A stretch of DNA of 64,000 bases, from contig NZ_RMVE01000001.1 of NCBI RefSeq assembly GCF_003865345.1, positions 62,001-126,000 of the forward strand, given 5' to 3'. Of the stretch, positions 2,256 through 60,922 are shown piece after piece. A program made the position numbers and the translations under genes. Every line of letters starts with the position of its first letter. Within the stretch, counting starts at the first letter, position 1. The notes under the pieces are model-generated. The model did no database searches. It was not told the DNA's origin and saw only the letters and a program-made list of their open reading frames with translations. This stretch comes from Nonlabens xiamenensis. GTDB lineage: Bacteria; Bacteroidota; Bacteroidia; Flavobacteriales; Flavobacteriaceae.

Positions 2256-4836
2256 ATCCCAATTCCGTTAAAAAGTTATTCAATTGGTTAGCGGCTTTGG
2301 TTCTACGGTCTAGAATGCTGACTAGGGTGTTTTGATATTTGGTATAGCGTGATTCTAACTCGGTAATTAAAGCGCGTTCATAGCGGTTTACATAATCCAT
2401 TACGGTATCGTGCAAGGTGGCTTTAAAACGTGTAAGTATTAAATCTTTGGCTTCTTCTGGCGTGATTTTTTCTCGTGCTTTTTCTACCAGGTCTTCCTTT
2501 TTGGCTTTGATCTCAGTGATGGTCGCCTTGCAGGTTTTGAGTTCGGCAGTTAATTCATTGTGTCGTGCCAGTCGCTGGTTGAGTTGTGCGGCTTGGGTTT
2601 CTGTTTGTTTTAATTGAAGCTGGTATTGGTTACGCTTTCGCGAAAGCGGAATGACCACATCATCACTGCTCCCATCTTTCTCATGTGCCTTGATACGTAT
2701 GCCTAGATCTTTTATCTCTTTCTTATGCTGGCGTATGCTGGTGTTGTACTCTTTAATACTGGCTTTTAATTCTTTGAGTACTTCTTTAGGGAATACCTCA
2801 TATTCCTCTTCATCAAAGGCGTCTTCTTCCAGCTCATTGACTTCGTTAAACATGGTGTCCAGCTCGTCACGTCTAGCCTCGTTATTTGCTAGTTCTTCCA
2901 GAACGTCTGGAAACTGTGATTGTAGAATATCATCTGCAGGGATCAAGTCTGCATTCCAGCCACTGGCAGCAATGGACTTTAAATCGGTCTCGAGACTGTT
3001 CCAATAGGTAGCAAAAGCGCCTCTACTTTTATGTAGATCGAGAATACCCAGCGCGCTAAAATTACTCGCAATGCTGTGCGAGAAGTCACGATACAGTTCA
3101 AAGACATTTTGCTGCACAGGCAGTGCTTCTAGTTTAGGCACATTTGCCGTCCACCAGTCGTTAACGCCTGCGGTGTATTGTTCTCTTTTAAGAATGACAT
3201 CATCATGGTTCAACACTAGGTTCTTAAGATCTTCTTTTGAGCTTACCGCATCTGTAAAAGCATCATAACCTTCTTTAGGTGATTTATGAAGTAGGGCCGT
3301 TCTTAAATGTAGGTAGTTATCCCAGTAGGACTGTAGCTCATCTACCTCTACCGTAGGAATACCTCCGTGCAAGTGTGCATTTACATCTTGCGGTTGTGCT
3401 GGTGGGCTGTTATCTACATACCTGCGTATGTTGAAATTATAATCTTCTTTTTCTAAGCCTTCTTTAGTAATCAATCGCGAGTAACCATCTAGCTCTTCTT
3501 TGCTTTTATAGATGTAACTGATCTTTGCGATGTCCTCTGGACGTAGTTTGTTCTGGTTTTTGCCTTCTTTATATTCACGGTCTGCATTTATAAACAAGAC
3601 ATTATCGCGTTGTGCCGCTCCTTTTTTGTTAATGATCAATACAGAGGCAGGAATACCTGTACCGTAAAACAGTCCCGATGGCAACCCTACTACGGCTTCT
3701 AGATAACCACGATCTACGAGCCATGCTCTCATGTTTTTTTCTTCGCTTCCGCGAAAAAGTACACCATGGGGCATCACGACCGCCATACGACCATTATCTT
3801 TTAGAACAGAAACCATGTGCTGGACAAACATGAAGTCTGCCTTTTTCTTTTTAGGCATCCAGTGATGAAAGCGATCGCGATAGTTTTTAATGTCGCTATA
3901 ATTTGCCGAAAATGGTGGATTTGCTATCACGATGTCAAAGCGTTTTAGCTCTCCATTCTCTACATGCAAAGGGTTTGCTATCGTATCACCTTGTAGGATC
4001 TCTGCATCAAAAATATCATGAAACAGCATGTTCATTTTACACAAGGACCATGTGGTACCACTTAATTCCTGACCAGCAAAACTTAATCGCGAGGCATCGC
4101 CATAACGTGCCTGCACATAATTCTTATTCTCGATCAACATACCACCAGATCCACAAGTAGGATCATAGATAGAAGATTCTTCTCCAGGTTCTAGCAGGTT
4201 AACCAGTAGTTTAACTACCTCGTTAGGAGTGTAAAACTCACCACCTTTTTTACCAGCGCTATCTGCAAAATATTTGATTAAGTATTCATAAGCCGTACCT
4301 AAAAGATCCGGGAATTCAAATCGTTTATCAGTAAGTGTTACCTTATCAAAATGCGTGATGAACTCGATGAGCTTTTCATCACTTAATGCGTTTTTGTTCT
4401 TACCTATGGTGCGGTTAAAGTTCACATTAGTAAGTACACCAGAGAGCTTATCTGGGTTTTCTTCTTCAAGTGCTTCCAGCGCTTTATTTAAATGATCACC
4501 TACGTCTTTTTTAAGGTGTAGGATACCATCATTAATTTCTTGACCGTTCTCGTTAGTGGTCTTATAGTTCCATCGTGCGCGAGCTGGTACGTAATACTGG
4601 TATGCGTTTGCACGTTCTAGTGCTTCTTTTATTTTAGCTTCTGGTAAACCTTTGGTTTGTAGTTCCTTTAATCGTGCAGCGCGATCTTCTTCAAACTTAT
4701 CGCTCAATCGTTTTAAGAATAACATTCCAAAAATGTATTCTTTAAACTCTGAGGCATCCATATTACCTCTTAATATATCGCAGGCATCCATCAGGAAGCC
4801 TTCTAGCCAAGATAGGGTTAGTTTTTTGTGGGTCAT
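2245..4836 (-). CDS. hsdM: Type I restriction-modification methylase subunit HsdM, long form
   Basis: This is the N6-adenine DNA methyltransferase subunit. After an N-terminal HsdM helical domain, the catalytic domain shows the SAM-binding motif DPTCGSGG (residues 225-232) preceded by GGEFYTP, and the catalytic NPPF (306-309). At 863 aa it is much longer than classical HsdM (about 500-530 aa). From about residue 655 there is a charged, predicted coiled-coil region ([20 protein letters not shown] onward). Some Bacteroidota type I methylases have similar extensions. One copy of the 16-bp palindrome (2633-2648) lies in this extension and is read there as PLSRKR. It overlaps hsdS and probably begins the operon or follows the 169-aa gene 46 bp upstream. 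Confidence 0.95.
2633..2648. repeat. 16-bp palindrome copy 1 (CGCTTTCGCGAAAGCG)
   Basis: A perfect copy inside hsdM, starting at codon position 2 of the gene and read as LSRKR. It lies in the linker and coiled-coil extension, not in the catalytic domain. Confidence 0.97.
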
Positions 4837-4882
4837 TAGGTTTTTTAGTTTCTTTTATTGTGGTGGTTTATTGATCTTATGA

Positions 4883-5392
4883 TCAAAGATTATCAACCTT
4901 GTTTTTCAAATGAGTAAATAAGCCGTAATAGGAATCAAATTGTCCCTTTTGCTTGATCAGAATAGAATTGATAATAGGTACATTAAAATAATAGACCATT
5001 CCGTTTTCCCATGCTTTCCAAACTTCATCAGGTATTCGATATTTACGCCTCCATAAATATTCTTCTGCACAGAGATTGAAGTATCTAATAATTAATTCCT
5101 CATCATCGTCAGAAATTTTCACAGTATTATTCTCATGTTTTTCTACTATGTCATCTAATTGATTTCTAAACTCAGTATCATACTTTTTATTAAAGTCAGT
5201 AAACAATTCTTGAAACATTCTATCATCTTGAATCTTAGACTGCATGAAAGCAATGGAAAGTGAAATACCTGTTGCAATGGTTGCTGCAAAAACCTCAATT
5301 CTGTCAGACCAGTAATAAAGTCCTATTCCTAAAGTAAGGAATAAGGTATTTATAAGAATGACATCTTTGTTTTTACTTATTTTATGGAGCAT
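4883..5392 (-). CDS. Hypothetical membrane protein (169 aa)
   Basis: Two hydrophobic stretches occupy about residues 12-50 (ILINTLFLTLGIGLYYW and a second one around AATIATGISLSIAF). An acidic, soluble C-terminal domain follows, with an IIRYFNLCAEEYLWRRKY segment. That layout, two membrane helices and a cytoplasmic domain, resembles small membrane proteins common in mobile and defence islands, but I cannot assign a family. It lies 46 bp upstream of hsdM in the same direction, so co-transcription is possible. Confidence 0.75.
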   Translation of the reverse strand: MLHKISKNKDVILINTLFLTLGIGLYYWSDRIEVFAATIATGISLSIAFMQSKIQDDRMFQELFTDFNKKYDTEFRNQLDDIVEKHENNTVKISDDDEELIIRYFNLCAEEYLWRRKYRIPDEVWKAWENGMVYYFNVPIINSILIKQKGQFDSYYGLFTHLKNKVDNL

Positions 5393-5495
5393 ATGGTTGG
5401 TTATGTAATCAGGTCAATTAAGATCATATTTTCAAGGCAACAAGCTAATTAAAAACATAGATCTTTCTTACGGATTCCCTCAATTTAATGTGGAG

Positions 5496-5783
5496 TTATC
5501 TTTTATATTTTAATGATTTCACTTCGGACAAAGCATTATCGATAGAAGCCGTTTCAATTAATTTTCTATTTCCAACTTTGCGAGCTTTAATTATGCCACG
5601 TTTTATATAGCTGCGTACGGTTTGAGTTGACACCTTTAATCTCTTGGCAGCTTTCTGGATAGTTGTATAAGTTTCCTTTGATTTTTCTAACTCCTTTTCT
5701 TAAAAATAGGCTTCGATTCCTTTTCTAACGGAAGTTTCTATTAGTTCTTGAAGCTCTTCTTTGGTGGTGATGATTAGGTTCAT
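5496..5783 (-). pseudogene. Excisionase/MerR-like HTH protein with one in-frame stop
   Basis: From an ATG at 5783 the frame reads 27 codons (MNLIITTKEELQELIETSVR, then KGIEAYF). It hits TAA at 5702-5700 and then continues in the same frame for 67 codons to a natural stop at 5498-5496. The second part is a clear helix-turn-helix module of the excisionase/helix_turn_helix_17 type (TIQKAAKRLKVSTQTVRSYI, KRGIIKARKVGNRKL). Frame and motif continuity across the stop suggest a single nonsense mutation in a 95-aa gene. Internal restart is possible, because the HTH part is intact. Such proteins often serve as recombination directionality factors for integrases like the one at 9.4-10.6 kb; that link is inference. 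Confidence 0.75.
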
Positions 5784-5802
5784 GGAATAACGATTACTCT
5801 AA

Positions 5803-7517: not shown

Positions 7518-8081
7518 TTATAAATTTATATTATAAGAATTAAGAACGTGTTCCCACTTCAAGTCCACTTTCTTTGGAATCAAAATACTTTCTTCATTCG
7601 CTATTTTTTGTCCTTTTTCTTTGTTAAATGATAGGAAATTAAAACTACCTTGGATATAATAATCATTGTCTTTTATAATCAGCTTCCTGTGTGTTCCCGT
7701 CATTTTATAGTTTCCTTGTTCTTCAAAATGAGTTGGTAAATGCATTAAATGGAAATTCTTTTGGTATTTGCTTTTTAGATTTCGCAGTTTTTCAATTGTT
7801 CCGTAATGATGTTCATCATTACTTTCAATTCCATACAATATGATAACTTCTACACATCTTAGTAATGCTTTTTCAATACTATTTATATATTTTAAAGTAG
7901 CACGTTTTACCCAAGGACTTTCTATTAGTATTTTAGATTTAACTGTCTTTAGTGCTTCTGCTAATTTTTCTTGCGTTTGCCAAACTGAAAGTGTTTGTGT
8001 TTCGGTTATCTTTTTCTCGTTTTCAGTTAATTTTGAAGGCTTCCCTGTTTTTGAAGGCTTCCCTGTTTTTGAAGGCTTCCC
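7518..8081 (-). pseudogene. C-terminal fragment of a PLD-like (HKD) nuclease/phospholipase protein
   Basis: The frame is open from the IS junction to the stop at 7518, about 188 codons, with no start of its own other than internal TTG codons. It reads a linker of three KTGKPS repeats, then a helical segment (TLSVWQTQEKLAEALKTVKS). A PLD-type domain follows with ILIESPWV, VEVIILYGIES and the catalytic-type motif THRKLIIKDNDYYIQGSFN (H-x-K...GS-x-N). The 5' part is missing: upstream is the IS3-family element, and no matching coding sequence is found beyond the other IS end. This is therefore a truncated remnant. Proteins of this kind often accompany helicase or nuclease defence genes, but the lost N-terminus prevents assignment. 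Confidence 0.8.
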
Positions 8082-8088
8082 TGTTTTT
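8035..8088. repeat. Three 18-bp tandem repeats at the IS/PLD junction
   Basis: GAAGGCTTCCCTGTTTTT is repeated three times without mismatch (8035-8052, 8053-8070, 8071-8088). In the leftward PLD frame each unit encodes KTGKPS. The last eight bases of the third unit (CTGTTTTT) coincide with the left tip of the IS element. Confidence 0.95.
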
Positions 8089-8120
8089 CATACAGTTTAA
8101 AAATCAATTAATTTTAAATT

Positions 8121-15048: not shown

Positions 15049-16149
15049 ATGCAATCCTTTTTCATTTTCTGTAGCGGTGCCGACGCTGACCTTTTGGATC
15101 AGTGCAGTGCTGGTGAACGCAACAAATACGCCGGTATTGGTGCAACTGTATTTTTCACTGCCTTGATGGCATTTTTTGCCGCGAGTTATGCACTTTTCAC
15201 CGTTTTTGACAATTATTGGATCGCAGGCTTTTTTGGTTTTGTTTGGGGGTTGCTCATTTTTAATCTGGACCGCTATATCGTTTCTACCTTAAAAAAAGAC
15301 GAAAAGAAGATCAATGAAATCTGGCAGGCTACGCCGCGTATTTTGCTGGCCATCATCATCGCAGTTGTCATTTCTAAGCCACTCGAACTCAAAATATTTG
15401 AAAAGGAGATTGATCAAGTTTTGTTGGAGGAGAAAAATGCGATGACCTTGGAAAATCAGGAACAGGTTGCCGCCTTATATGCTGTGGAAGAGTCCGCTTT
15501 CGCGAAAGCGATACAAGATCTAAAGTCTGAAATAGCCTTTAAGGAGGCCGAAGTCAATCAATTATATGACACTTACATTGCCGAAGCTGAAGGAACTTCT
15601 GGCACCAAAAGACTAGGCAAAGGTCCAGTATATGCAGAAAAACGAGAGAAGCACGATACAGCACTAGCCGAGCTCAATGCATTAAAAATCAGCAATGCTG
15701 AAAAAATAGCGGCCTTAGAAACCCAAATGTCCGACCTTGCCCAAACTGAGAAACAGCAACTGGCGGCCAACCAACCAGTCATAGATAATTTTGACGGACT
15801 GATGGCACGGATTACTGCACTCAATCAGCTGCCGTTCCTCACCTCATTTTTTATATTTCTGCTTTTCCTGGCTATCGAGACTTCTCCCATCATCGCCAAA
15901 TTATTGGCGCCTAAAGGAGCTTATGACTATAAATTGGAGGAACAGTTGGGTGTTGTTTCCACTTGGGTAGCACAACAGGCACAACAACAGAAAGTATTAT
16001 TGCAAACCGATAAAGAAGTCAATAACCGTGTCTATGCCGATATTGCCGAGGAAGATGCGCTATATGATTATAAGAAAAAGGTCGCCAGGGAGCTGATGCA
16101 GCAACAGGCAGATGCCTTTTATAAAAAACAAAAAGGTATTTTAGGATAA
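15049..16149 (+). CDS. DUF4407 membrane protein
   Basis: 366 aa with the DUF4407 layout: CSGADADLLDQCSAGERNKY at the N-terminus, two adjacent membrane helices (about residues 28-80), the FNLDRYIVSTLKKD motif, another helix (LLAIIIAVVISKPLELKIF), a long charged coiled coil (about 120-240) and a last membrane helix (PFLTSFFIFLLFLAIETSPI). The function of this family is unknown. A palindrome copy (15495-15510) encodes AFAKA at the start of the coiled coil. The 3' end overlaps the convergent pdeM gene by 9 bp. Confidence 0.88.
   Translation: MQSFFIFCSGADADLLDQCSAGERNKYAGIGATVFFTALMAFFAASYALFTVFDNYWIAGFFGFVWGLLIFNLDRYIVSTLKKDEKKINEIWQATPRILLAIIIAVVISKPLELKIFEKEIDQVLLEEKNAMTLENQEQVAALYAVEESAFAKAIQDLKSEIAFKEAEVNQLYDTYIAEAEGTSGTKRLGKGPVYAEKREKHDTALAELNALKISNAEKIAALETQMSDLAQTEKQQLAANQPVIDNFDGLMARITALNQLPFLTSFFIFLLFLAIETSPIIAKLLAPKGAYDYKLEEQLGVVSTWVAQQAQQQKVLLQTDKEVNNRVYADIAEEDALYDYKKKVARELMQQQADAFYKKQKGILG
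15495..15510. repeat. 16-bp palindrome copy 2
   Basis: A perfect CGCTTTCGCGAAAGCG inside the DUF4407 gene, read as AFAKA in the coiled-coil region. Confidence 0.97.
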
Positions 16150-16784: not shown

Positions 16785-19190
16785 CTAAAAAGAATAGTTC
16801 AACGCCAGAATCAGATTTCTACCAGCCGCAGCGATTCCGGATGAGTAAGTACGATATCGCTGGTCTGTGATATTTTCCAAAGTGGCTACGGCGCTTAGGT
16901 GATCTGAAAAACTATATTGAGACCTGAGATTGAGGGTATACCATCTTGGAGAAAAAGGATTGCCATCAGCGTCCAACGCATATAGATAGGGCCTGGACTG
17001 TTGGCTGGGCGCCAATTCGTCAAAATCAAACTGACCATTAAATACGGTAAAGGCATCCAACTTAAATCGCTGGCCTTTGTATACTACATGTGCATCGCCA
17101 AAATCTGGCGCCACGTGTCTAACCGCTACCTCTGATCCATCAGCCTCTTCCTGAGTGCCGTCCAGATGGGTATAATGCCCGTATATTTCCAACTGATCAG
17201 TTAATTCGTATCGCATAGCAAGCTCAATACCGTAAATACGCGCCTCTTCCCCATTCTGAATGGCTTGAACCTGGCTAATCTCCCCTTGGTACTGAATCAT
17301 ATCCTGCCCATTCAATTCAAAGTCACGTAAGACAAGTGCATCTTTCAAATAAGTATGATACCCGGCTACCTCAACACTCAGCTTATCATTGAATCTTTTC
17401 TTGATGCCTATTTCCGTATTATAGGAATACTCAGATTCCAAATCTGGATTGGGTACAACCACTGTCTCAGGTGCAGGATCAAATATTTTACCAATGTCGT
17501 CAATATTGGGTGCTCTGAAAGCCGTGCTGAGATTGGCCCTAAATTCCCAACCCGGTTCTGGTCTATAGGTAGCGCCAAATGCCCCTGTTAAGGCTCCCGT
17601 ATTGACTGTAGCTTCATCAAAGGGGAAATCAAAAAAACCATCATTAAATTGAGCATCAATCCAGATATGATTGTATCGCAAACCGGATTGTAGGGTCAAA
17701 TTGTTCAGCACTCGCCATTGATAGCTTGCATAGCCCGCCAGAGAACGCCAGGAAGCACCATCTGGATATCTGGAGGCAGCGGGAGCACGTTGTTCTGTCT
17801 CTATATCAAATACACTTCCCCGGGAGTCTACCCGATTATGAAGAAATTCTGCCCCATAAAATAGCACATTGTTCTCCCTATTGCGACGTTCAAAATCCAG
17901 CGAACTCGATATTACATCAACCTGCTCCTTATTTTGGAAGAGTTCGCTGTCCATAAATGACCGGTTGTTTCTACTTTCTGTAAATCGCTGATAAGCTTGT
18001 GTAAACACGGCTTTATCGTACCATCTTCCGTTGCCTCGATGGGTAGCTTTCAGATGGGTCAAAAGCCATTTCTGCGGACCGTAGTACCACTGAGCTTCTC
18101 TGGGGTTTCCGCTTTCGCGAAAGCGGGTCAATGCATCATATCGTGAAAAGTCGCTGGTAGCTGAATAAATAATCCCCAAATCAAACTCCCACCTTAGATT
18201 AGGCCGATATCTGAATTTTTGTAGAAGATTATATTGATCATAGGCCGTGGGCACCTGCCGTTTTGGATCTGGATTGTCTATCAATACATCTTCCCCATCA
18301 CGACGATCAACAAATTGCGGTCGTAGATATTCATCAGGCCCATGACTACCCATGGTTAAATCGCCAAAAGAATTAATACTTAGACTGGTAGCGGTAGCAA
18401 ATTTCTTTGAACTATAACTGAAATCTAGATGGGCCGTATTCTCTTCATTGGCAGTCGCATATCTGATCAGAGCGTTACCGGCAAACGAAGTACTGTCAGC
18501 TTCAAATTTCGGTTGAAGTGTATAAAAATTCATCACTCCACCTATAGCATCACTTCCATAAACTACACTGCCAGGCCCCAATATTACCTCCGTTCGTTCG
18601 ACGCTCAGTGGATCAATTGAAATTACGTTTTGGAGGTTTCCACCCCTGAATATTGCGTTATTCATACGCACACCATCAACAGTAATCAAGAGTCGGTTAG
18701 TAGAAAAACCCCTGATTAAAGGACTACCGCCACCTTGTTGGGATTTCTGAATATAAACCTGTCCAGATTGCTGCAACAAATCGGCACTAGTTTGCGGATT
18801 GTTACGCAGGATTTCCTTTCTCTTGGTCGAAATGATTTTTTGGGGTATGTCCTGTTTACGTTGTTCAAATTTTGAGGCAGAGATCACTATGGGATTGATA
18901 CGTTCAGAACTGGGTTGTAGATAGACGATGACGAGACTGTCATCGATAGATCTTTTAGTAAGCACGTAGGTTTTAAATGCCATGCTTTGGAAGTAAATTT
19001 TTTCTTCCTCGTCAAAACCAGAGAGATCTACCCTTCCTTCAAAATCCGTAATGGCACTTACACTCTTATCTTTATTATACACAATCACAGAAGGCAGTAC
19101 TTCATTTGTATCTGCATGCTTCACCACGGCTGTCTGCGCCGATGAAAGTAAGCCAAAACCAATCAAAATCAGTGATAGTAAATATTTCAC
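16785..19190 (-). CDS. TonB-dependent outer-membrane receptor
   Basis: An 801-aa outer-membrane transporter. After a signal peptide (MKYLLSLILIGFGLLSSAQ) comes a carboxypeptidase-regulatory-like domain (TNEVLPSVIVYNKDKSVSAI, about 25-100). The plug follows (about 115-240: NPIVISASKFEQRKQDIP, SPLIRGFSTNRLLITVDGVR, GPGSVVYGSDAIGGVM), then a beta barrel ending in F (LILALNYSF). The substrate is unknown; the barrel resembles heme/siderophore/vitamin receptors generally. Translation starts at a GTG that overlaps the recO stop (GTGA). A palindrome copy at 18110-18125 encodes RFRES in a barrel loop. Confidence 0.93.
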   Translation of the reverse strand: MKYLLSLILIGFGLLSSAQTAVVKHADTNEVLPSVIVYNKDKSVSAITDFEGRVDLSGFDEEEKIYFQSMAFKTYVLTKRSIDDSLVIVYLQPSSERINPIVISASKFEQRKQDIPQKIISTKRKEILRNNPQTSADLLQQSGQVYIQKSQQGGGSPLIRGFSTNRLLITVDGVRMNNAIFRGGNLQNVISIDPLSVERTEVILGPGSVVYGSDAIGGVMNFYTLQPKFEADSTSFAGNALIRYATANEENTAHLDFSYSSKKFATATSLSINSFGDLTMGSHGPDEYLRPQFVDRRDGEDVLIDNPDPKRQVPTAYDQYNLLQKFRYRPNLRWEFDLGIIYSATSDFSRYDALTRFRESGNPREAQWYYGPQKWLLTHLKATHRGNGRWYDKAVFTQAYQRFTESRNNRSFMDSELFQNKEQVDVISSSLDFERRNRENNVLFYGAEFLHNRVDSRGSVFDIETEQRAPAASRYPDGASWRSLAGYASYQWRVLNNLTLQSGLRYNHIWIDAQFNDGFFDFPFDEATVNTGALTGAFGATYRPEPGWEFRANLSTAFRAPNIDDIGKIFDPAPETVVVPNPDLESEYSYNTEIGIKKRFNDKLSVEVAGYHTYLKDALVLRDFELNGQDMIQYQGEISQVQAIQNGEEARIYGIELAMRYELTDQLEIYGHYTHLDGTQEEADGSEVAVRHVAPDFGDAHVVYKGQRFKLDAFTVFNGQFDFDELAPSQQSRPYLYALDADGNPFSPRWYTLNLRSQYSFSDHLSAVATLENITDQRYRTYSSGIAAAGRNLILALNYSF
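18110..18125. repeat. 16-bp palindrome copy 3
   Basis: A perfect copy inside the TonB receptor gene, starting at codon position 1 and read as RFRES, in a likely extracellular loop region (DALTRFRESGNP). Confidence 0.97.
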
Positions 19191-33733: not shown

Positions 33734-33789
33734 TATGCTTTGGCTTTCATGCCCGCCTTTTTCAGATGGGGATTGCTTACTTTTACCAC

Positions 33790-40555: not shown

Positions 40556-40951
40556 CTAATTATTGGCCGACTTATATCCAATGAATTTCCACAGGGCAAA
40601 AATCCAGCCTGAGATCAACAATAGCCCACCGATAGGAGTAATTGGTCCTAAGAACGACAAGTCAATTTGCCAATATGCCGACATACAAAGCATATAAATA
40701 CTGATTGAAAACAGTAAAATTCCGCAGGAAAAGAGTACAATGATGACTTTTTTTGAAGATGAAATTAGGAATTCGGTTTGGGCAAACAACAGTAAAGCCA
40801 GCGCATGATACATCTGATATGTTACTCCCGTCTCAAAACTGTCTAATTGTTCCGGTGAAAGAATTTTTTCTAAAGCATGAGCACCCAAAGCACCCAGTAC
40901 TACAGCGCTGACCGCAAATAAAATACCTATGATGAACATTTTTTTCTGCAT
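40556..40951 (-). CDS. DUF423 membrane protein (YgdD-like)
   Basis: A 131-aa inner-membrane protein with four hydrophobic segments. It has the family start GILFAVSAVVLGALGAHALE, the FETGVTYQMYHALALLLFAQ motif, and a GPITPIGGLLLISGWIFALW C-terminal helix. The function is not established. It is divergent from the saccharopine dehydrogenase gene. Confidence 0.9.
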   Translation of the reverse strand: MQKKMFIIGILFAVSAVVLGALGAHALEKILSPEQLDSFETGVTYQMYHALALLLFAQTEFLISSSKKVIIVLFSCGILLFSISIYMLCMSAYWQIDLSFLGPITPIGGLLLISGWIFALWKFIGYKSANN

Positions 40952-40991
40952 TGGCTTTTAGAATTTATAACAAGTCCTTTACCTTGGGGAC

Positions 40992-40999
40992 CAAATTTA
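40992..40999 (-). promoter_or_regulatory. -7 box TAAATTTG of the DUF423 gene
   Basis: Minus-strand TAAATTTG lies 41 bp before the DUF423 ATG and just upstream of the divergent ATG at 41008. Confidence 0.5.
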
Positions 41000-41007
41000 C
41001 GACACAC

Positions 41008-48114: not shown

Positions 48115-51100
48115 TTAATTACCAAAAGTATATCTCAAGGTGATCCCGCTGCGTATTGTCGTTTGCGGAAAAGCAGTAGATATCGCAAATTCTGAGAATG
48201 TATGGTCGTAGTAGAAAATTGCGGTAAACGCCTGACTTAAATTGTAGTCGGCACTAAATTTAAGCCCATAGATGGTCTGACCTGCCGTCGCCTGACTGTT
48301 GTCCAGATCTAGATAGCGCACAATAGTCACATTATCTCGTACACTGCCGTCCAATCTCATGTTCAAATCGCTTTTAATCACTCTACTTCGACCGCCCCAG
48401 CTGGTGCGGAACCTCAAGTCTTTGATCCGATAACCCAATCCCAAAATCAATTCGTTTCCATTAATCTCAGTTAATAGGTTATTGTCAAAACTCAATGAGA
48501 TAGCACGGTCTTTACGCCATTCGGCGGCAATAGAAACACTGTTTTTCATTTCAAAGTCAAGCTTTACCAGTGGACTAAACTGTTCGGCAAGATTGATATT
48601 GAAATACAAATTGCTGGCTTTAAAATCACCGTTTTGGTTAAGCGCCTGCGGATTCTGGTCCTGATATTCTAAAGCGCCGTTACCAGGAGCAAAGTCCAGG
48701 TTGGTCTGGAACCTGTTGATCGTGTAACTAGAGCGATAGCCATGGTTCAACGAGAAACGGCGGAATCTCTTCTTGAACCATTTTAGGTTCATCAGTCCAG
48801 TATATTTAACTGTCCAGTTGGGCAACGGGATGTCCTTAAAGACGTTGTTGTCTTGCTTTTGAACATCACGACCTTCATAAGCGGCTACAAATGCCGGAAA
48901 CAATACACGCTGACTGTTGCGTGAGAAACCTTCTGGGAAACCAAATTGGTCTCGGTTAAAGGCAGTATTTCCGTAAAATTCTTCGGCCAGGCGATTGGCT
49001 ACCAATAGTCTATTGTCTTTAAAAGTCTCAAAAGTGTCTGACTGATCAATCGTGCTGGGCTGGAAAGCTGTGCGTATCATCATATTGCTGATACTAAAAT
49101 TACCAAAAGTGTTGGGGGTCAATTGTTGGTATCTCAACTCGTCTGGATCGATCCTGAAATTTTCATTATAAGTCTCTTGATAAGCCCGATTCCCCAAGAT
49201 GTCAATAGAAAGATCTTTAAGCAGGTCTACTTTAAAATTATAATCTAATTTTCTAGTTTCTACCTCGCTATACTGCTGGTTAAAATCCTGGAATAGGGTC
49301 AACCAACCTCGCCTTGCGGCCAGATCACGTATCTCTGCCTGGCTACCAAAAACAAATCCAGTAGTAGGTTTTAGCGTACCGATGAAACCAATGTCCTGAG
49401 TGTACCCAGGAAGGAAAATACCATTGGTTTCCTCATAATTAATCTGTGCGCGTTTCACAGCAGTGACTAGGCCGATTAAGGTATTGTATGCCTGGTTCCC
49501 AAAATTCTTTTTCGGAACTTTTTTCTTTTCTTCTTCCTTCTGGTCTTTTCCATTGTTTGCGTTGGCATTTGGCAATCTGCCTCTGGAACGTGACCTGGTT
49601 CTGGAACGGTCCTGATTGGCAGTTCTGCCAAACTTCAGCTTTTCCAAACCTACATAAGTGTACAGCTTATCAAAGTCCAAGGTACCATTGATGCGGTGTG
49701 TATTGGCATTTTGGACAGTATTTCCTAATTCAGGTATTCCGTCCAGTTGCGCAAATTGCTGCGAATTTCTAGACCATTGGAAATTGGAGGTGTAGGTATA
49801 GTTCGCTTTCGCGAAAGCGAGAAAAGGAAACTTGTCGAAAGGCAACTTATACGTCATTTGTAACTGTTGGGAATGCGTATTGGGAACACCCTCATCAAAA
49901 AAGTCCGTCCACAAGGTATAATCCTCATTTATACTTTGATCATCCTCAATATAACTCCGTATAATACGATCATTATTGGCCGATACGTTCAACTGCAAAG
50001 ATTTGGTCAAATCCCAATTGATAGCATATTGATGATTCATTGTGAAATTTCTGTTGGTCAATGGTGCAATACTAATATTTCGCGCATCTGGTATTCCGTC
50101 CCCATCTAAATCTACAGGATTGGTATCCAGCTGTAGATCGCGGAATTTCTGAGTATTGTACTGTCGAACTACGTTGAGCCCTGCTGTAAAGTTGTTAGGC
50201 AGCGGGTTAAAGTTCAAGTCTTTAATGAACTTGAGGTAATTGTTATCCAGGAAGCCAACATTTTTAAAGGGCTCTAATTCTGCCTTGGGGAAGGCATAGT
50301 TGTAAGTTCCGCCCACATTTACAGATTGGTCCTGAAATTCCTCTACTTCAAAATTGCGTTGATCAACCTGGTTATAGGATCCCGAAAAAGTAAAGTTTTC
50401 AATATCATAAGGCATGGGCTTAGCATCACCAGTCCTGTCCTTGCGTACACCAATGAGGTTAACACTCTGTCGTTTGGTATAATTTTCAGATTGCTCCCTG
50501 ATGGCATCGCGCTCTGCGTCACTTTCTGCGTTGTCCAATCGGGTTTCCAATTCTATGTCTTCAAATTGCGGATCAAATTGAGGGGTAATCGTTTCCTCGC
50601 CGATGCTATAGGAAAACGGCAGTGAAACTCCCCATTTTTTTGGCAATAACTGTCCTAAACTCAAACTGGTGGTCACGTCGTATTGGGTCAAATTCTCGCG
50701 ACTGCGCTCTTGTGGCCCTTGCTCAATAGCGCCAAATCCAATGGTACTTCTGCGGCCCGTAGCACTTACCGTGGCAAAATCTGCAACATTGGCATCCATA
50801 TTCATCACAGCGGCATAACCGCCCTGATTTTTTAAACCCGCCAGACGCATTTCGTTGAACCAAACCTCGCCACAAACATCATTTAACGACCTGTTGCGCA
50901 CGCCGATCATCAACGTACGGATATCACCAAAGTTAGGATTCCCTTTGATTCCGTATTGGTGTTGGTTAAGTGCGCCTGCCGATGAAGGATCTAAGGTTGT
51001 CTGATCAAAGAAATTTACTTCATTAACGTTTAAGGTTGGGTCTCCCAAAACTCGTGCTTTGATTTCTTGTAAAAGGGCAAGATCAATATCAAAGTTATTG

Positions 51101-54100
51101 GCTTCGGGCCACACCTCACCGCGTACATTTGTATTGGGTGCCGTAACCTCTAAGGGGAGGCGTATTTCATAATAATTCTGGGTAAAGTCCACACCCATTC
51201 TGACAAAAGCTTCCAGTTCGCCGTCAGCTGCAGTCATTCCGGGTAAGTTACCATTATCAGCATGAACAAACATTTTTAAGGATTCATATTGACGCATATC
51301 AATACGAATGTTTTTAAATACAGCGCGTCCATCCTCTGGTTGCAGCTCACAGACCCTTAAGGCAAGAGACTGTTCATTTTGCCTGATGTTTTGGTTTTGT
51401 GTACGCAATTCTTCCCGTTCTACTCCTGGTGGTAAAACATAGGGAACTGGTTGTCTGGTCGAATTGTTTTCGATATTGACTCCCTGTACTTCAAAGGTGG
51501 TGTTGGAGCTTGGTGTACCGCCATCGGCTCGTAAAGTTCCGTCATATTGTCTATAATCACCACGCACTAAGTCAAGTGCACCAAATCTCAAATACGTATC
51601 CTGTTCAAAGCCTGACAGGTACATTCTCATAAAACGTATCGCCCTGAAATCACCGATATTTCCAACTACTCTATAGTTGGGGTTATTCGCTTCCAATTGA
51701 CGCAAAGGCACCCTGAATTGCACCCATCTGGTACTGTAAGGATTTCCGTTGGGGTAAGTGTCGTCATAGATTACTTCATCTGAGATGTATTCATTGACCA
51801 TCCTGTTATTGACATTCTGCAGCACAACATCATACTCGTAGTAACTATCAATGGTGTTCATGGTATTGTCACGATTGATGTCTTCTACATCAGGCAAGGT
51901 GGTAGATCCGCGGTTATTCTGGCTCACCTCAACAGGTGAATTTCCTTCGGTACCGTTGTAGTTTTTATAACGAGTGGGAATATCTCCACTAGCGGCCACA
52001 AAAAATTCGTAGTTGTCTCCGGCTGGATCTATTGGTCCGAAGGCAGGGAAATCCACATTTTCTTCAGCATCGCTGTATCCGTCCAATCCAATATCCTGAT
52101 TGGCTCTTTCCTGCCCTTCGGTATCAAAGGCATACACCAAAGACTGATTGGCAGGAACCTTACCGTAGGCTGTGTTAATAGTAAGCATGTCACCTCCATC
52201 TTCTGGAAGTCCGTTTTCGTATTGTTTCCTGTTGTCCTTTAGGATGTCTTCTGAAATGCTTCCCAGGTTCAGCGTGATCGTTCCTCCCTGGTTGTTTCCA
52301 TTCCCATTGTTTTCCGGACCTTCGGCATAAAATGGGTCCATCACCCAAAACTGGATGTATTCTACGTTGGTCTGTTCAAAGTCCGTACTACTGAATTGAC
52401 GTGTGATACCTGCCCAACTTTCATCTGGATTGGGTAGAATATTGGTTCCCGCAGCTTGCGGATTATAATTATACGGACCACGCTCGTCTGGATAGTAGGC
52501 CAAGTCCAAGGTATTGATGACCTGCTGCTGACCTTGTTGTAAATCTGTATTGGGAAAAATTTCTTCAATAAAAACACGTCTGGAGCGGTAGTCAGAAACA
52601 TCCTGATCAGTAATACCATCTGGACGCTGATTCCCGTAAAAAATGGGGTCGATCGAATACCAGGCTAATTTTGCGCGATTAAAATTATATGCCAGCGGAT
52701 TCGACATACTGCCCATCCCTTCAAATGCCACTGGGGTACTGGCCAGTGTCCAAGCAAAAGGAGAAAGAATATCTACCGTGGTTTGAGAGCCTTCAAAGTC
52801 GTCCACATAGGCTGCCGCTTCTCCACCAAAATTATCCCCTTCAGGAGATCCAGGAAATAAATAGGCCACTTCCCCACGTAGTGAGAGATTGGAAGGTACA
52901 TCTGTATCAATATTGGGAAGTTTATTGGCCATTCTGGTTAAGAATGGAACCTCAGTGTTATAAAGAAAATTTAGTCCTAAAATAGTATTATTGATGGGCT
53001 CAAAACCATAAGTAGATTTTTGGGTAATGGGCCTCTCCTTCAGGTTAAGGAAAGTACCTCCCAAAATAAAGTCTTCGTTGAAGGTATGTTCTACATTAAT
53101 TCCCGTAAAACGTTTGGTCTGTTGGTTAAATACTGAGTTGTTTTCCGTAGAAACCTGAATAGGAGTATTAGAATTGAGTAAAGCTTGGTCGAGAATGATG
53201 ACCCTTCCCAAGTTATAATCTACGGTATAATCAATCCCTTCCTGTAAGGTACGCCCGCCTGCAGTTACTGTTACAGAACCTCTGGGTACGTTAAAGGCAC
53301 CGATAGGAATTCCTTCCTGACCTGTGGCCTTGTATTGACCTTTAATTAAATATTTGTTTTTCTCAGCGTTTTGTAGTGCCTGAGCTTTAGTAGTCCGATA
53401 CATTTCCCTATACACATATTGCGCTTGATTGGCGTTATAGGTGGTGGGTTGATCATAATCTTCTGGACCAACTCCTGGAGTATTGTCCAGCTCGTCAAAC
53501 AGGTGTCTACCAAAAGGCTCTACCGTAGTAAAGATAATTCGTCCATTTTCAGGGTCAATGGTCAGTCCTGGAATAAAGTCAAAAAAGCCATCTCCATCGG
53601 GCAACGGATCCTGCTGCTGATTCAAACGATCTAAGTTAAATACGCGCAGTAAGGTGGTTTCTTGAACATCCTCTGGAAGTGGAACCGCAGGGTTAGTCAT
53701 TGTACCTGGTGAAGCTGTTAAATAATTCAGTTCAGGTGGATACTGATAAAAGATGTTTAACCTAAAATCCTCTTGGGCCAGTTGAAATCCGCCCAGATTA
53801 TAAATGTTTTTCATCATCAGATCCCAATTAGGCTCTGAGACATTTGTCAGGTTACTCTTCAGCAATTTCACCACGAGATTCTGATTACTTACAGGTGGCT
53901 GATTAGGATTGGGGTTATCCTGGACATCTGTAGCTACTACTCCATCATTGGCAAATTCTCCCACTTGAAAGACACGACCACCGACTGTATATTGAAAGGC
54001 GACTGCAAGAACCTCATCATTGTTGAGTCTTTGTCTCAAGGAGATGTATCCCAATTGAGTGTTTAGGGTGTATTCTTGGGGATCAAGTTTTCTTGCATTT

Positions 54101-55374
54101 TCCAAGGTCACAAAATCCACTCCTTCATTCACCTGGACCCCACCAAAACCTTGCTGTACGGTTGCTGTTTCCCTGATTTGTGGATTGAGCACGGTTTGAC
54201 CACCACCATTTATGCCTTCAGGGTTAAAATCATTATTCGGGTTATCAGGAAAACTTCCTTCAGGAACATTGATAAAACCACCTGGAGGGGTGTCCAACCC
54301 AATATTGGAAGGATCAGATTCACCTATGTCTTGGAGGGCCACAAGATTACGCACATCTTGGGTTCTGTTCCCACGGTTGGTGATCCACACTTCCGCACGT
54401 GTAATTTGAATATTGGTATTGATAAACGGATAATTCTCTAGGGCACGGTCATAGTTATCCCGGAAATAGTGCGCCAGAAAGTAGTGCCTATTCTCATCAT
54501 AATCTAGAGAAAAGAAGTCAAAATCATTAACCGTGGCTCCACCTGCCGCCTGAACCGTACGAGATTCTGACTGCTGTTCTGAAAAGACTGCGGTGATTCT
54601 GGTCTTACCGAACTGCAATTCGGTTTTAATACCAAAAAGACTTTGCGCTCCACGGATCAATTGAGAATTAAGCGGCATAGCCACGTTACCCACCTCAATA
54701 CTTTGTAAGATATCATCTTCGGTAGGGGTGTAGTCCAACTTGATTTGGTTCTGGAAATTAAAAGTGCTTTGTGTGTCATAATTGGCATTCACCTGTAGCT
54801 TGGTACCTACTTTACCTACAAGACTTAAATTGATGCGTTGATTGAAATCAAAGGTTAGGTTTTGGCGATTTCTGGGAGAAAAACTAGGATTGTCAGACCT
54901 ATTGAACAACAGGCCTAAATCCACCTCTACCGAACCCTGCGGATTAATATCAATTTCATTTCCACCGAAAATTGAGGAAAATAAATCTGAGTTCACGTAA
55001 AAATTAGGCAGTAGATCCTTTTGCTTCTTTTTGTCTTCTTCGGTTTTCCCAGCAATGGCGGCGTATTTTTCCTTAAAATATTCCCTAATCTGTTCTTTGG
55101 TTACTAAATCAAGGTACTGCTCTCTTGTCAACACAAATGGATAATCGATATTATATCCGTTGAAAGTACTGGAGAAAATATAGCGATCCATCTGTGGATC
55201 ATAAACATATAGGCTGGTAATACTGGGTGGATCTGGCAACGTCAGTTTCCCCAATTGAGGGGTACTGGTGGTGTCCTGAGGCGTTGCAGTTGGGTTCTGC
55301 GCTTTCGCGAAAGCGAGAACAAACAAACAAATAAGAAAAGAAAGTTCCCTAGGGGTTAAAATACTGTTTCTCAA
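48115..55374 (-). CDS. sprA: T9SS outer-membrane translocon SprA
   Basis: A 2419-aa protein, the giant 36-strand barrel through which type IX cargo leaves the cell; it is also required for gliding in flavobacteria. It begins with a signal peptide whose cut site (FVLAFAKA, then QNPTAT) is itself encoded by a palindrome copy (55300-55315). SprA features include the plug-like repeats with GNVAMPLNSQLIRGAQSLFG and FFSLDYDENRHYFLAHYFRD, and many barrel strands down to a C-terminal GITLRYTFGN. A second palindrome copy at 49804-49819 encodes AFAKA in a strand/loop near the C-terminus. It starts 3 bp after ruvA, so the two are co-transcribed. Confidence 0.95.
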   Translation of the reverse strand: MRNSILTPRELSFLICLFVLAFAKAQNPTATPQDTTSTPQLGKLTLPDPPSITSLYVYDPQMDRYIFSSTFNGYNIDYPFVLTREQYLDLVTKEQIREYFKEKYAAIAGKTEEDKKKQKDLLPNFYVNSDLFSSIFGGNEIDINPQGSVEVDLGLLFNRSDNPSFSPRNRQNLTFDFNQRINLSLVGKVGTKLQVNANYDTQSTFNFQNQIKLDYTPTEDDILQSIEVGNVAMPLNSQLIRGAQSLFGIKTELQFGKTRITAVFSEQQSESRTVQAAGGATVNDFDFFSLDYDENRHYFLAHYFRDNYDRALENYPFINTNIQITRAEVWITNRGNRTQDVRNLVALQDIGESDPSNIGLDTPPGGFINVPEGSFPDNPNNDFNPEGINGGGQTVLNPQIRETATVQQGFGGVQVNEGVDFVTLENARKLDPQEYTLNTQLGYISLRQRLNNDEVLAVAFQYTVGGRVFQVGEFANDGVVATDVQDNPNPNQPPVSNQNLVVKLLKSNLTNVSEPNWDLMMKNIYNLGGFQLAQEDFRLNIFYQYPPELNYLTASPGTMTNPAVPLPEDVQETTLLRVFNLDRLNQQQDPLPDGDGFFDFIPGLTIDPENGRIIFTTVEPFGRHLFDELDNTPGVGPEDYDQPTTYNANQAQYVYREMYRTTKAQALQNAEKNKYLIKGQYKATGQEGIPIGAFNVPRGSVTVTAGGRTLQEGIDYTVDYNLGRVIILDQALLNSNTPIQVSTENNSVFNQQTKRFTGINVEHTFNEDFILGGTFLNLKERPITQKSTYGFEPINNTILGLNFLYNTEVPFLTRMANKLPNIDTDVPSNLSLRGEVAYLFPGSPEGDNFGGEAAAYVDDFEGSQTTVDILSPFAWTLASTPVAFEGMGSMSNPLAYNFNRAKLAWYSIDPIFYGNQRPDGITDQDVSDYRSRRVFIEEIFPNTDLQQGQQQVINTLDLAYYPDERGPYNYNPQAAGTNILPNPDESWAGITRQFSSTDFEQTNVEYIQFWVMDPFYAEGPENNGNGNNQGGTITLNLGSISEDILKDNRKQYENGLPEDGGDMLTINTAYGKVPANQSLVYAFDTEGQERANQDIGLDGYSDAEENVDFPAFGPIDPAGDNYEFFVAASGDIPTRYKNYNGTEGNSPVEVSQNNRGSTTLPDVEDINRDNTMNTIDSYYEYDVVLQNVNNRMVNEYISDEVIYDDTYPNGNPYSTRWVQFRVPLRQLEANNPNYRVVGNIGDFRAIRFMRMYLSGFEQDTYLRFGALDLVRGDYRQYDGTLRADGGTPSSNTTFEVQGVNIENNSTRQPVPYVLPPGVEREELRTQNQNIRQNEQSLALRVCELQPEDGRAVFKNIRIDMRQYESLKMFVHADNGNLPGMTAADGELEAFVRMGVDFTQNYYEIRLPLEVTAPNTNVRGEVWPEANNFDIDLALLQEIKARVLGDPTLNVNEVNFFDQTTLDPSSAGALNQHQYGIKGNPNFGDIRTLMIGVRNRSLNDVCGEVWFNEMRLAGLKNQGGYAAVMNMDANVADFATVSATGRRSTIGFGAIEQGPQERSRENLTQYDVTTSLSLGQLLPKKWGVSLPFSYSIGEETITPQFDPQFEDIELETRLDNAESDAERDAIREQSENYTKRQSVNLIGVRKDRTGDAKPMPYDIENFTFSGSYNQVDQRNFEVEEFQDQSVNVGGTYNYAFPKAELEPFKNVGFLDNNYLKFIKDLNFNPLPNNFTAGLNVVRQYNTQKFRDLQLDTNPVDLDGDGIPDARNISIAPLTNRNFTMNHQYAINWDLTKSLQLNVSANNDRIIRSYIEDDQSINEDYTLWTDFFDEGVPNTHSQQLQMTYKLPFDKFPFLAFAKANYTYTSNFQWSRNSQQFAQLDGIPELGNTVQNANTHRINGTLDFDKLYTYVGLEKLKFGRTANQDRSRTRSRSRGRLPNANANNGKDQKEEEKKKVPKKNFGNQAYNTLIGLVTAVKRAQINYEETNGIFLPGYTQDIGFIGTLKPTTGFVFGSQAEIRDLAARRGWLTLFQDFNQQYSEVETRKLDYNFKVDLLKDLSIDILGNRAYQETYNENFRIDPDELRYQQLTPNTFGNFSISNMMIRTAFQPSTIDQSDTFETFKDNRLLVANRLAEEFYGNTAFNRDQFGFPEGFSRNSQRVLFPAFVAAYEGRDVQKQDNNVFKDIPLPNWTVKYTGLMNLKWFKKRFRRFSLNHGYRSSYTINRFQTNLDFAPGNGALEYQDQNPQALNQNGDFKASNLYFNINLAEQFSPLVKLDFEMKNSVSIAAEWRKDRAISLSFDNNLLTEINGNELILGLGYRIKDLRFRTSWGGRSRVIKSDLNMRLDGSVRDNVTIVRYLDLDNSQATAGQTIYGLKFSADYNLSQAFTAIFYYDHTFSEFAISTAFPQTTIRSGITLRYTFGN
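49804..49819. repeat. 16-bp palindrome copy 8
   Basis: A perfect copy in the C-terminal third of sprA, read as AFAKA in FPFLAFAKANYTYTSN. Confidence 0.97.
55300..55315. repeat. 16-bp palindrome copy 9
   Basis: A perfect copy at the signal-peptide cleavage region of sprA, read as AFAKA with the predicted cut directly after it. Confidence 0.97.
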
Positions 55375-55377
55375 ATC

Positions 55378-55959: not shown

Positions 55960-55982
55960 ACTTTAACAATTTGTAAGGGTTT

Positions 55983-55990
55983 CAAATGTA
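55983..55990 (-). promoter_or_regulatory. -7 box TACATTTG of ruvA-sprA
   Basis: Minus-strand TACATTTG, 24 bp before the ruvA ATG, matches TAnnTTTG and is the likely promoter for the ruvA-sprA pair. Confidence 0.6.
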
Positions 55991-56011
55991 TGAAAATATA
56001 ACTGATGCCTC

Positions 56012-58309: not shown

Positions 58310-58332
58310 GAATCCTTTAGAATTTGCGCCTA

Positions 58333-58340
58333 CAAAGGTA
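58333..58340 (-). promoter_or_regulatory. -7 box TACCTTTG of maeB
   Basis: Minus-strand TACCTTTG lies 24 bp upstream of the maeB ATG. Confidence 0.55.
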
Positions 58341-58470
58341 GGTTATATATGGGATTAAACATTTCCAGCGGTTTGGTTTTATCGGCGCACAACATGCCAA
58401 CTGCTATATCCTCTGTATTGAATTGAGCCTTTCATATCTTGTCATCGTGATTGGATGAAGCGATTGACTT

Positions 58471-59817
58471 TTAATCTAGTGACGAAAAAATGATGTTGGC
58501 ATTCTTGGGTTTTAAGGTAATCAGTGGGTGGTAATCAATCTGCTCATTGGTCTTTTCCAGATGAAAGCGTTGAAGTATTCTGGCAAGAACCAATATCATC
58601 TCAAACATGGCAAAGTTATTTCCTACACACATACGAGGCCCGGCACCAAACGGAAAATAAAATTCGCGGTAGGCTTTTGCTTTTTCAGGAGCAAATCTTT
58701 CTGGAATAAAATCTTCAGCGTGTTCCCAAAGGTCTTTTCTACGGTGCATTTCATAAAAGGAGATCAGCCAGATGCTACCTTTATCCATGACCAAATCTTC
58801 ACATTGATCTTTTGAGAGCGCAACACGATCAGTAACATATGCTGGGGGATAAAGCCTCAACGTCTCCTCTATACATTGCTTGATGAACGGCATACACATC
58901 AGCTGTGGCATTAAATCCCCTTCTTTGAGCGTTAGAGCCTCTTTCCTGGCCTTTTCCAAGCTTGCTGGGTGTGTAGCCAATAACTGCACGGCAAAGGTCA
59001 GTGCATTGGCGGTTGTTTCATGACCTGCAATAAACAAGACGAGAATTTCATCGACCAACTGATCATCTGGCATATGGCTGCCATCTTCATAGGTACTATG
59101 CAATAACATATCCAGCAGATCTCCAGGCTCTTTATTACTTTCCTTTCTGTTTTTGATGATCTTGCGTAAAATTGTTCTGGCCTCCTCCACCAGTTTCAAG
59201 GCGTGAGGTACGCTGTTTTCTCCTGCCAGCCATTCCCGGTCAAAATACCATTTCATCCATGGAATCCTCAACTCTTTGATCAACATCTTTTGGGCTTGTT
59301 CCGTGATGTGTTGCAACCTTGAAATCTTTCCATCCAAATCGTCGATATCCCCAAGGTCAAAAAGACTGCGTGCCACAACCTTAAAAGCAAGGTCGTTGAA
59401 AATTGCATAAACGTCTACTTCTTTGCCCTTTTTGATCTGATCGAGCTCATCACCAATGACCTTATCCATGGTAACCATAAGTGTGGCAATGGATTTTTTA
59501 TAAAATGCTGGCTGAATCAGTTTGCGATTGGCGCGCCATTTTTCCCCATTTTCTGTAAGCAAACCATGTCCTATGTATTTCCCTAAATCATCTGTTTGAA
59601 GGGAAGATTTATCATAGTTTTTCTGATTTTTTTGCAGGATATGTTGGGTAATTTTCTCGTCACAAGTAAAATGAATCATCAATCCTGGCTTAGGACTGAT
59701 CTTAAACGTATGGCCGTATTTTTGGAAATTTTCACGGTGAAAAGGCAGCGGATCTCTATAAATCTGGCGCGATTTTGCCAGAAATGTAAGTGCAGGTACC
59801 TGATGGATGTGTTTCAT
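58471..59817 (-). CDS. Cytochrome P450
   Basis: A 448-aa soluble monooxygenase. The I-helix [14 protein letters not shown], the ExxR motif [11 protein letters not shown], the PERF-type [14 protein letters not shown], and the heme-binding loop [20 protein letters not shown] with its proximal cysteine are all intact. No redox partner is adjacent, and the substrate is unknown; it resembles the fatty-acid or hydrocarbon type (CYP102-like oxygenase part). It overlaps the ruvB stop by 4 bp, so probably co-transcribed with ruvB. Confidence 0.93.
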
Positions 59818-60845
59818 GATTGGTCGAATAACCCTCCCGTTGTGCCAGCCTTGATTTTTCCCAAATGCTTATAGGCCGCTTCTGTAACTTCTCTTCCCCT
59901 AGGAGTGCGTAAAATAAAGCCCTGTTGGATCAAAAATGGCTCGTATACCTCTTCAATGGTTTCTGCACTTTCTGAAACAGCTGTGGACAGTGTAGTGATC
60001 CCAACGGGACCGCCTTTAAATTTATCGATGATCGTAGATAAAATCTTATTGTCCATCTCATCCAGTCCGTGTGCATCCACATTTAAGGCCTTTAGGGAAT
60101 ATTGAGAAATATCCAAATCGATACGGCCATTTCCTTTGATCTGTGCAAAATCCCGAACGCGTCTTAAAAGTGCATTGGCGATACGAGGCGTCCCGCGGCT
60201 ACGGCCAGCGATTTCGATAGAAGCATCGTTATTGATGGGCACATTTAATATTTCAGCACTACGAGTGACGATGGTAGAGAGCAGCTCGGTCGAGTAGTAT
60301 TGTAACCTAGAGGAAATACCAAATCGCGCCCTCATGGGAGCCGTAAGAAGTCCAGACCTGGTCGTCGCACCAATCAATGTAAATGGAGCAAGGTTGATCT
60401 GCACTGTTCTAGCGTTGGGACCAGTCTCAATCATGATATCGATCTTATAATCCTCCATCGCGCTGTAAAGGTATTCTTCCACAATCGGACTTAGTCGATG
60501 GATCTCATCAATAAAAAGCACGTCTCGTTCATCTAGATTGGTCAGCAATCCGGCAAGATCACCAGGTTTATCGAGTACTGGACCAGAAGTCACCTTGATA
60601 CCTACGCCCAACTCATTGGCAAGTATATGGGCTAGCGTGGTCTTTCCTAAACCTGGAGGGCCATGAAAAAGCGTGTGGTCCAAAGCATCACCGCGACGGT
60701 TTGCAGCTTCCACAAAAATCTTGAGGTTTTCCAACACCTGATCTTGTCCTGCAAAATCATCAAAAGACAAGGGTCGTAACGCGCGCTCGATATCTTGTTC
60801 TTCATGGGAGAAGCTTTCACCGGTAGGATCTAGGTTTTCATTCAT
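59814..60845 (-). CDS. ruvB: Holliday junction branch-migration ATPase RuvB
   Basis: A 343-aa AAA+ helicase motor. Walker A is [20 protein letters not shown], Walker B is [12 protein letters not shown], sensor 1 is [20 protein letters not shown], and a C-terminal winged helix has the [15 protein letters not shown] region. The start chosen is the ATG at 60845 ([12 protein letters not shown]); a longer frame opens at 60872. A -7 box TATCTTTG ends 5 bp before this ATG, so the transcript is nearly leaderless, which excludes the longer frame. Confidence 0.96.
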
Positions 60846-60849
60846 AAAC

Positions 60850-60857
60850 CAAAGATA
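60850..60857 (-). promoter_or_regulatory. -7 box TATCTTTG of ruvB (near-leaderless)
   Basis: Minus-strand TATCTTTG ends only 4 bp before the ruvB ATG, so transcription should start at or beside the start codon. Confidence 0.55.
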
Positions 60858-60906
60858 AGGTCTAGATGGCAATACACTTTCATGGGTTGATGATTTGTTA
60901 TCTATC

Positions 60907-60922
60907 CGCTTTCGCGAAAGCG
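60907..60922. repeat. 16-bp palindrome copy 10 (intergenic)
   Basis: A perfect copy between the PfkB kinase gene and ruvB, about 60 bp upstream of the ruvB start. It is the only copy in the window outside a gene. Confidence 0.97.

Follow-up and report, generated by a model that had tools for sequence, protein, structure and literature searches.

A 16-bp palindrome iterated throughout Nonlabens genomes is the centre of a symmetric 48-bp element, possibly a site for a dimeric protein that acts on whole replicons

What keeps one and the same 16-bp palindrome, CGCTTTCGCGAAAGCG, letter-perfect at ten places of a 64-kb piece of a flavobacterial genome? The piece in question (hereafter the window) is the 64,000-nucleotide stretch 62001–126000 of contig C5 in the genome of Nonlabens xiamenensis (G000; 3,684,258 bp in 13 contigs). 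All ten exact copies that had been noticed in a sequence-only reading of this DNA were found at their positions; copies with one or two mismatches are absent from the window, and a single copy with three mismatches is located at 3744. In 100 dinucleotide-preserving shuffles of the window (41% GC) the mean number of matches with up to three mismatches was 0.10, and CGCTTTCGCGAAAGCG is the sole 16-bp palindrome that occurs there more than once. The sequence-only reading forecast hundreds of copies per genome and took the word for a selected, highly iterated DNA signal. The genome actually contains 422 exact copies, with 0 for the reversed word used as a control, or 630 versus 4 if up to two mismatches are allowed (exact copies included), and the idea of a selected signal is supported by the counts, by positional conservation and by even spacing. 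The motif is an exact symmetric site of the double-stranded DNA type, which is under strong selection or drive, is distributed chromosome-wide with few close neighbours and is present in resident mobile DNA. The earlier reading, which left the function open, overlooked that the 16-mer is embedded in the middle of a longer element, approximately 48 bp in length and two-fold symmetric.

The degree of exactness can be judged from the variants. In 446 kb of C5 there are 58, 20, 4 and 3 copies with 0, 1, 2 and 3 mismatches, respectively, while palindromes made of shuffled half-sites averaged 0, 0, 0.07 and 1.1 in the same DNA. Thus, the sharp drop-off anticipated for variants is observed inside the motif, but not at its outermost pair, since among the 20 copies with one mismatch 16 are changed at position 1 or 16. 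The same bias to outer bases is described for variants of HIP1 (highly iterated palindrome 1, GCGATCGC), a highly iterated perfect palindrome of cyanobacteria (PMC4390886; this and other papers denoted by PMC numbers are cited for the excerpts available). HIP1 itself is not enriched here (6 copies of GCGATCGC seen versus 5.5 expected in 446 kb). The Nonlabens word has another sequence, its bearer belongs to Flavobacteriaceae rather than to cyanobacteria, and its 16-bp core lies within a 48-bp element, occurs approximately once per 5 kb and avoids its own neighbourhood. A functionless by-product, created by methylation or mismatch repair biased towards this word, would nevertheless share the variant bias of HIP1. 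We consider such an origin very improbable, because the A positions in the flanks of the 48-bp element coincide between two genera, close neighbours are avoided, and outside the word the inner TCGCGA shows no excess and the half-sites only a little. Outside the word TCGCGA was found 37 times against 37.9 expected, and lone half-sites were near expectation (5, 2, 10 and 5 seen versus 4.0, 1.1, 6.8 and 3.3). Restriction avoidance and enrichment of a methylase core were rejected on this level of TCGCGA.

How widely is the word distributed? In the related genomes, where the sequence-only reading had proposed to count it, 180–737 exact copies per genome were registered in all 23 Nonlabens genomes searched, and the inner 14-mer is present there in 288–857 copies. 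A Dokdonia genome contains 630 exact copies, genus g214 contains 153, and the remaining Flavobacteriaceae genomes searched have 13 at most. The inner 12-mer, counted in 397 genomes of the family, is abundant only in Nonlabens (581–685 in four genomes drawn), Dokdonia (917) and g214 (445), the next highest count being 21; outside the family, among 395 genomes of the order surveyed, the 14-mer was found in no more than two copies. In a tree of SprA proteins rooted at midpoint, Nonlabens, Dokdonia together with g214, and the motif-poor genera g27 and g100 all fall on one side of a branch, which leaves two histories for the array, two gains or a single gain followed by loss without visible trace. 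Searches of the open-access PMC literature revealed no paper with the 12- to 16-letter words; their 10- and 11-letter parts occurred only in papers unrelated by title, and theme searches, judged on titles and the starts of abstracts, yielded no description of the motif.

In the window nine of the ten copies are located, as had been claimed, in genes of unrelated function. Copy 1 (2633–2648) belongs to an open reading frame (ORF) for a type I HsdM-like N6 DNA methylase (2245–4836, minus strand); genes of this type are usually accessory, so that the sites are not restricted to core genes. Copy 2 (15495–15510) is in the ORF of a DUF4407 protein (15049–16149, plus strand), copy 3 (18110–18125) in that of a TonB-dependent receptor (16785–19190, minus), copy 4 (26108–26123; C5 position 88108) in trmB (25778–26446, minus) and copy 5 (33841–33856; C5 position 95841) in an epimerase-type ORF (33766–34782, plus). 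Copy 6 (42319–42334) is close to the end of a saccharopine dehydrogenase-like ORF (40951–42372, plus) and copy 7 (44880–44895) is in a 702-aa ORF without a Pfam match (43254–45362, minus). Two copies are hosted by sprA (48115–55374, minus), the gene for the translocon of the type IX secretion system: copy 8 (49804–49819) at codon 1851, where its frame reads AFAKA, and copy 9 (55300–55315) at codon 19, in an N-terminal AFAKAQ segment that by its look may be a signal peptide. Only copy 10 (60907–60922) is intergenic, between ruvB (59814–60872, minus) and a pfkB-family gene (61003–61953, minus). The window also contains a perfect head-to-tail triplication of an 18-base unit (8031–8084) outside ORFs of at least 100 aa, and megablast of positions 1–24000 against plasmids gave no match.

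Using sprA as an anchor, we compared its neighbourhood in G000 with those of 20 Nonlabens relatives. Of 80 rows covering the copies at 42319, 44880, 49804 and 55300, 7 were dropped as aligned over few flank bases, and in the 73 cells left all 16 bases were preserved in 59 and at least 14 in 72. At 30 control positions of the same stretch complete identity was registered in 2 of 511 cells, and at least 14 of 16 bases coincided in 16.6%. Taken separately, copy 6 is exact in 12 of 17 aligned relatives (the other five keep 15 of 16 bases), copy 7 in 14 of 18, copy 8 in 16 of 19 and copy 9 in 17 of 19, while for copy 10, after 11 of 19 rows had been dropped for the few aligned flank bases, 4 of the 8 relatives left have all 16 bases. 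When 58 sites of C5 were compared with 400 kb of the complete relative G002, 17 were alignable (41 were not), and 14 of them, copies 4 and 5 included, turned out exact, two had one mismatch and one was lost; among random aligned 16-mers of these two genomes 1.5% were identical. In genome G022 20 of 42 14-mers align to G000 or G002, every one at 13 or 14 of 14 bases. Genus g214 shares 2 of 6 sites with Nonlabens (one as a gapped match) and 2 of 4 with Dokdonia.

Codon 1851 of sprA allows one to look at the origin of a particular copy. AFAKA is present in 19 of 19 aligned Nonlabens proteins, and in 15 SprA of other genera without the word the alignment is gapless with varied residues. Consequently, the word was created at this codon by substitution, and it is the word that determines the protein sequence there. 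A mobile palindromic insertion element of the RPE/REP type (Rickettsia palindromic element, repetitive extragenic palindrome) is rejected by the same gapless alignment at this codon, which is the sole place tested. As a separate observation, SprA of Dokdonia (G266) and of g214 (G250) matched in two pieces with a break near query residues 483–493, and their open frames are 30–90 aa longer than SprA of G000.

The sites are not only kept in place, they are also kept apart. On C5 99 intervals have a mean of 8.2 kb and a coefficient of variation (CV) of 0.60 versus 0.99 for random placement; the minimum interval is 1928 bp, the random median minimum is 58, and none of 20000 random placements matched this evenness. 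For the 14-mer the mean spacing in three Nonlabens is 4.5–5.9 kb; intervals shorter than 1 kb number 0, 3 and 5 in G000, G002 and G004, where 11, 17 and 18 are expected, and in G000 and G002 the spacing as a whole is significantly even. In 400 kb of G002 three pairs of sites lie close together (446 kb of G000 contain none), and they are accompanied by no regulator-like gene that could be seen by eye. Twenty 20-kb samples taken round the complete chromosome of G002 gave 72 copies with 75 expected and no gradient by eye; the one empty sample is situated in a nonribosomal peptide synthetase (NRPS) cluster.

Conservation and spacing of this kind are shared by DNA uptake sequences (DUS) and uptake signal sequences (USS) of Neisseriaceae and Pasteurellaceae, which makes a mate-recognition sequence of natural transformation, kept by molecular drive, the strongest rival explanation. 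Like the motif, these sequences are present in hundreds of copies with stringent positional conservation and even spacing (PMC2397512, PMC1939737), vary in a dialect-like manner and serve as tracers of island origin (PMC2397512, PMC1939737, PMC7371117). The place of DUS is highly conserved and their spacing is tied to conversion fragments (PMC2397512); the even spacing of uptake sequences is significant, yet less even than compaction would need (PMC1939737). The outer pair of the Nonlabens word is also relaxed in a dialect-like fashion in G022 (634 14-mers against 255 16-mers) and likewise in g214; the information content of the site is in excess; and Riemerella columbina of the same family is reported to be naturally transformable with preference for its own DNA (PMC7965970). 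Uptake sequences are, however, not palindromes according to the excerpt available (PMC1939737), and the ATPase of type IV pili or type II secretion (PilB/T2SSE) gave no match above the cut-off in 17 of 18 genomes, including 6 of 7 bearers searched, though other uptake machines are possible. PF00437 exceeded the cut-off in G000 only, all the others, six further bearers among them, having weak sub-threshold matches. The strong match to a type II/IV secretion ATPase in G000 (C12:16568–17587, E 2e-121) is unique among the 18 genomes, and its contig was perhaps acquired. On balance, we regard an uptake function as unlikely, yet deserving serious attention.

What is recognized in the element can be inferred from its flanks. 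Numbered outward from the 14-mer, with the outer pair of the 16-mer as +1, the two flanks both have A at +3, +4, +7, +10 and +12 or +13, and G is avoided up to approximately +17. These A-rich, G-poor half-site flanks have the same A positions in Nonlabens and Dokdonia. Summed from +1 to +17, the information per half amounts to 5.9 bits in G002 and 5.7 bits in G022; Dokdonia follows with 4.9 and G000 with 3.4 bits, and g214 reaches only 1.4. The pattern is no product of codon use, because all three Nonlabens examined showed it at intergenic sites and on either side of coding sites. The core alone carries 30–32 bits, a value slightly inflated since the sites were picked at up to three mismatches, and the whole site (core plus flanks beyond it) approximately 34 bits in G000 and 40 bits in G002. 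The two halves do not covary: 330 Nonlabens sites gave 2079 complementary matches versus a mean of 2079 after re-pairing, and 87 Dokdonia sites 556 versus 552. Probably, therefore, each half is read by a protein and no hairpin is formed.

The absence of covariation also bears on a function at the RNA level, in which the element would act as a hairpin or terminator of the transcript. A 6-bp hairpin of −4.3 kcal/mol is possible, and sites are two to three and a half times as numerous in intergenic DNA as its length would predict. At the same time, the stability of the hairpin is not clearly higher than that of shuffled sequences (z −0.79), and most sites overlap ORFs as defined by a simple longest-ORF caller (60 of 73 in G000 and 61 of 88 in G002). 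An intrinsic terminator at gene ends was rejected on these grounds, and any RNA-level role appears hardly credible.

The word is not confined to the chromosomes of its bearers. It was found in 41 stretches of viral contigs; eight proteins from six viral stretches were scanned, and seven of them belong to portal, terminase, tape-measure, head-protease and, in one stretch, integrase families. At identity of 90% or less 34 of 50 aligned 14-mers of viral stretches were exact, 13 had one change and 3 were lost, though these cells are non-independent. Sites at aligned places persist in phage contigs of about 65% identity, in a set selected by the word, and such presence in phages is one more difference from DUS/USS that speaks against uptake. 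In two cultured Nonlabens phages, P12024S (35.7 kb) and P12024L (30 kb of its sequence), no copy was found even at three mismatches. Uptake sequences would be expected to be missing from recently acquired DNA, and in this respect the picture is mixed: the NRPS stretch is devoid of the motif, but islands and phage contigs have it. Two viral contigs with two exact copies each (L157 and L161) are 47–48% GC, which is above the window and suggests that a further motif-bearing host may exist.

Some array-free genera have a few copies at repeated spacings of 933 and approximately 2446 bp. In the 20 stretches read they occupy fixed positions in genes of RND (resistance-nodulation-division) efflux, outer-membrane efflux and heavy-metal P-type ATPase proteins, and also in a small protein, Fur-like by eye, without a Pfam match at 1e-10. 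In G136 of the sister genus g100 all 19 core copies are gathered in one 78-kb stretch (35.5 kb of it read), and in G346 20 of 21 are in two stretches. Such clustering lets them be read as islands, and relics of a lost array in g100 were rejected on this ground. Metal-resistance islands with the motif probably came to motif-poor genera from motif-bearing hosts. A part of the G136 island (C3:63001–78500) encodes many small membrane and basic proteins besides motif copies, and by eye resembles an unusual mobile element.

Presence on the chromosome, islands and phage contigs together with absence from the two cultured phages might be expected for a Chi-like or self-marking signal, which would act in both directions at DNA ends, stopping a nuclease or loading a recombinase, and so spare self DNA. 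A palindrome is functional from either side, and the density of one site per 4.5–5.9 kb and the genome-wide spread are close to those of Chi in Escherichia coli. Chi sites are, however, short, asymmetric and read as a single strand, whereas the perfect palindrome with symmetric flanks, read per half-site over 48 bp, points to double-stranded DNA binding. Such a role seems improbable to us.

Based on these data one can assume that the 48-bp element is a double-stranded DNA site of a putative homodimeric (or tetrameric) sequence-specific protein that organizes, segregates or repairs long-lived replicons; we give this interpretation nearly even chances. Such a dimeric reader would act on the replicon as a whole: it might keep the nucleoid organized, anchored or segregated, or it might mark DNA for the repair of breaks. 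Every stretch of several kilobases would then need one site, and a second site nearby would add nothing. Under this requirement long-lived replicons, i.e. the chromosome, prophages and integrated islands, would acquire and keep sites, and phages merely passing through might do without them.

Several observations weigh against this interpretation. No binding protein was found; ParB was the sole family tested, and no genome-wide search for a reader was made. ParB gave one strong match in each of 18 genomes, motif-rich or not, with a weaker second match only in G015. No extra ParB copy tracks the motif in these genomes, and differences in the recognition helix, compared by eye, do not follow it, so that ParB was rejected as a reader. 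Approximately 12 bits are enough to find 857 sites in 3.9 Mb, and such excess exactness is more typical of signals maintained by drive. Evenness is not universal: G004 contains a small number of very long gaps, and its overall spacing is not even (CV 0.92; 1232 of 5000 simulations as low), though short intervals are too few there as well. An origin–terminus pattern was not demonstrated; the spread over the chromosome was observed at 20 sampled points in a single relative with a complete genome. In the comparison made from G002 to G000 only 18 of 74 sites were alignable (56 were not), of which 14 were exact, one had one mismatch and three were absent. Of 52 Dokdonia sites located in ORFs, 23 are spanned by a homologue from Nonlabens, although some of these may be paralogues; one of the 23 comparable positions has the site at the same place, with two more within 60 nt. 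The arrays of the two genera are, thus, mostly at different places, and no single place is essential. Conservation in phage contigs is overstated, since the viral set was selected by the word. Finally, the 59 features of P12024S and 47 of the 58 features of P12024L include none named as an integrase, and the lytic habit of these phages is an assumption.

If a dimeric protein reads the element, then systems organizing chromosomes are the natural objects of comparison. The sites parS of ParB and those of Noc are palindromes in the same length class bound by dimeric helix-turn-helix proteins. They number from some ten to seventy, versus hundreds here, and the single strong ParB of the bearers is found in motif-poor genera as well. 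A scattered palindromic motif, over 80% intragenic and tied to chromosome organization, is also described for SegB of Sulfolobales; it is 13 bp long, and S. solfataricus has 46 such sites (PMC12284271), compared with 422 in N. xiamenensis and up to 737 in its relatives.

It is therefore conceivable, with chances that we put somewhat below even, that the element represents a new whole-replicon maintenance code of Bacteroidota, in which several hundred regularly spaced 48-bp sites, also adopted by resident phages and integrative islands, let a putative reader set a several-kilobase unit length for folding, segregation or repair. To our knowledge, words kept genome-wide by selection in hundreds of copies are few (HIP1, DUS/USS, Chi and KOPS, the FtsK-orienting polar sequences), and we are aware of no agreed function for HIP1. 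Its significance is called little known in the excerpt cited above (PMC4390886). The present motif is longer than any of these words, dictates protein sequence within genes such as sprA and occurs in two marine genera, Nonlabens and Dokdonia, isolates of which have been sequenced. It may also serve as a tracer, because clusters of its copies mark metal-resistance islands in motif-poor genera.

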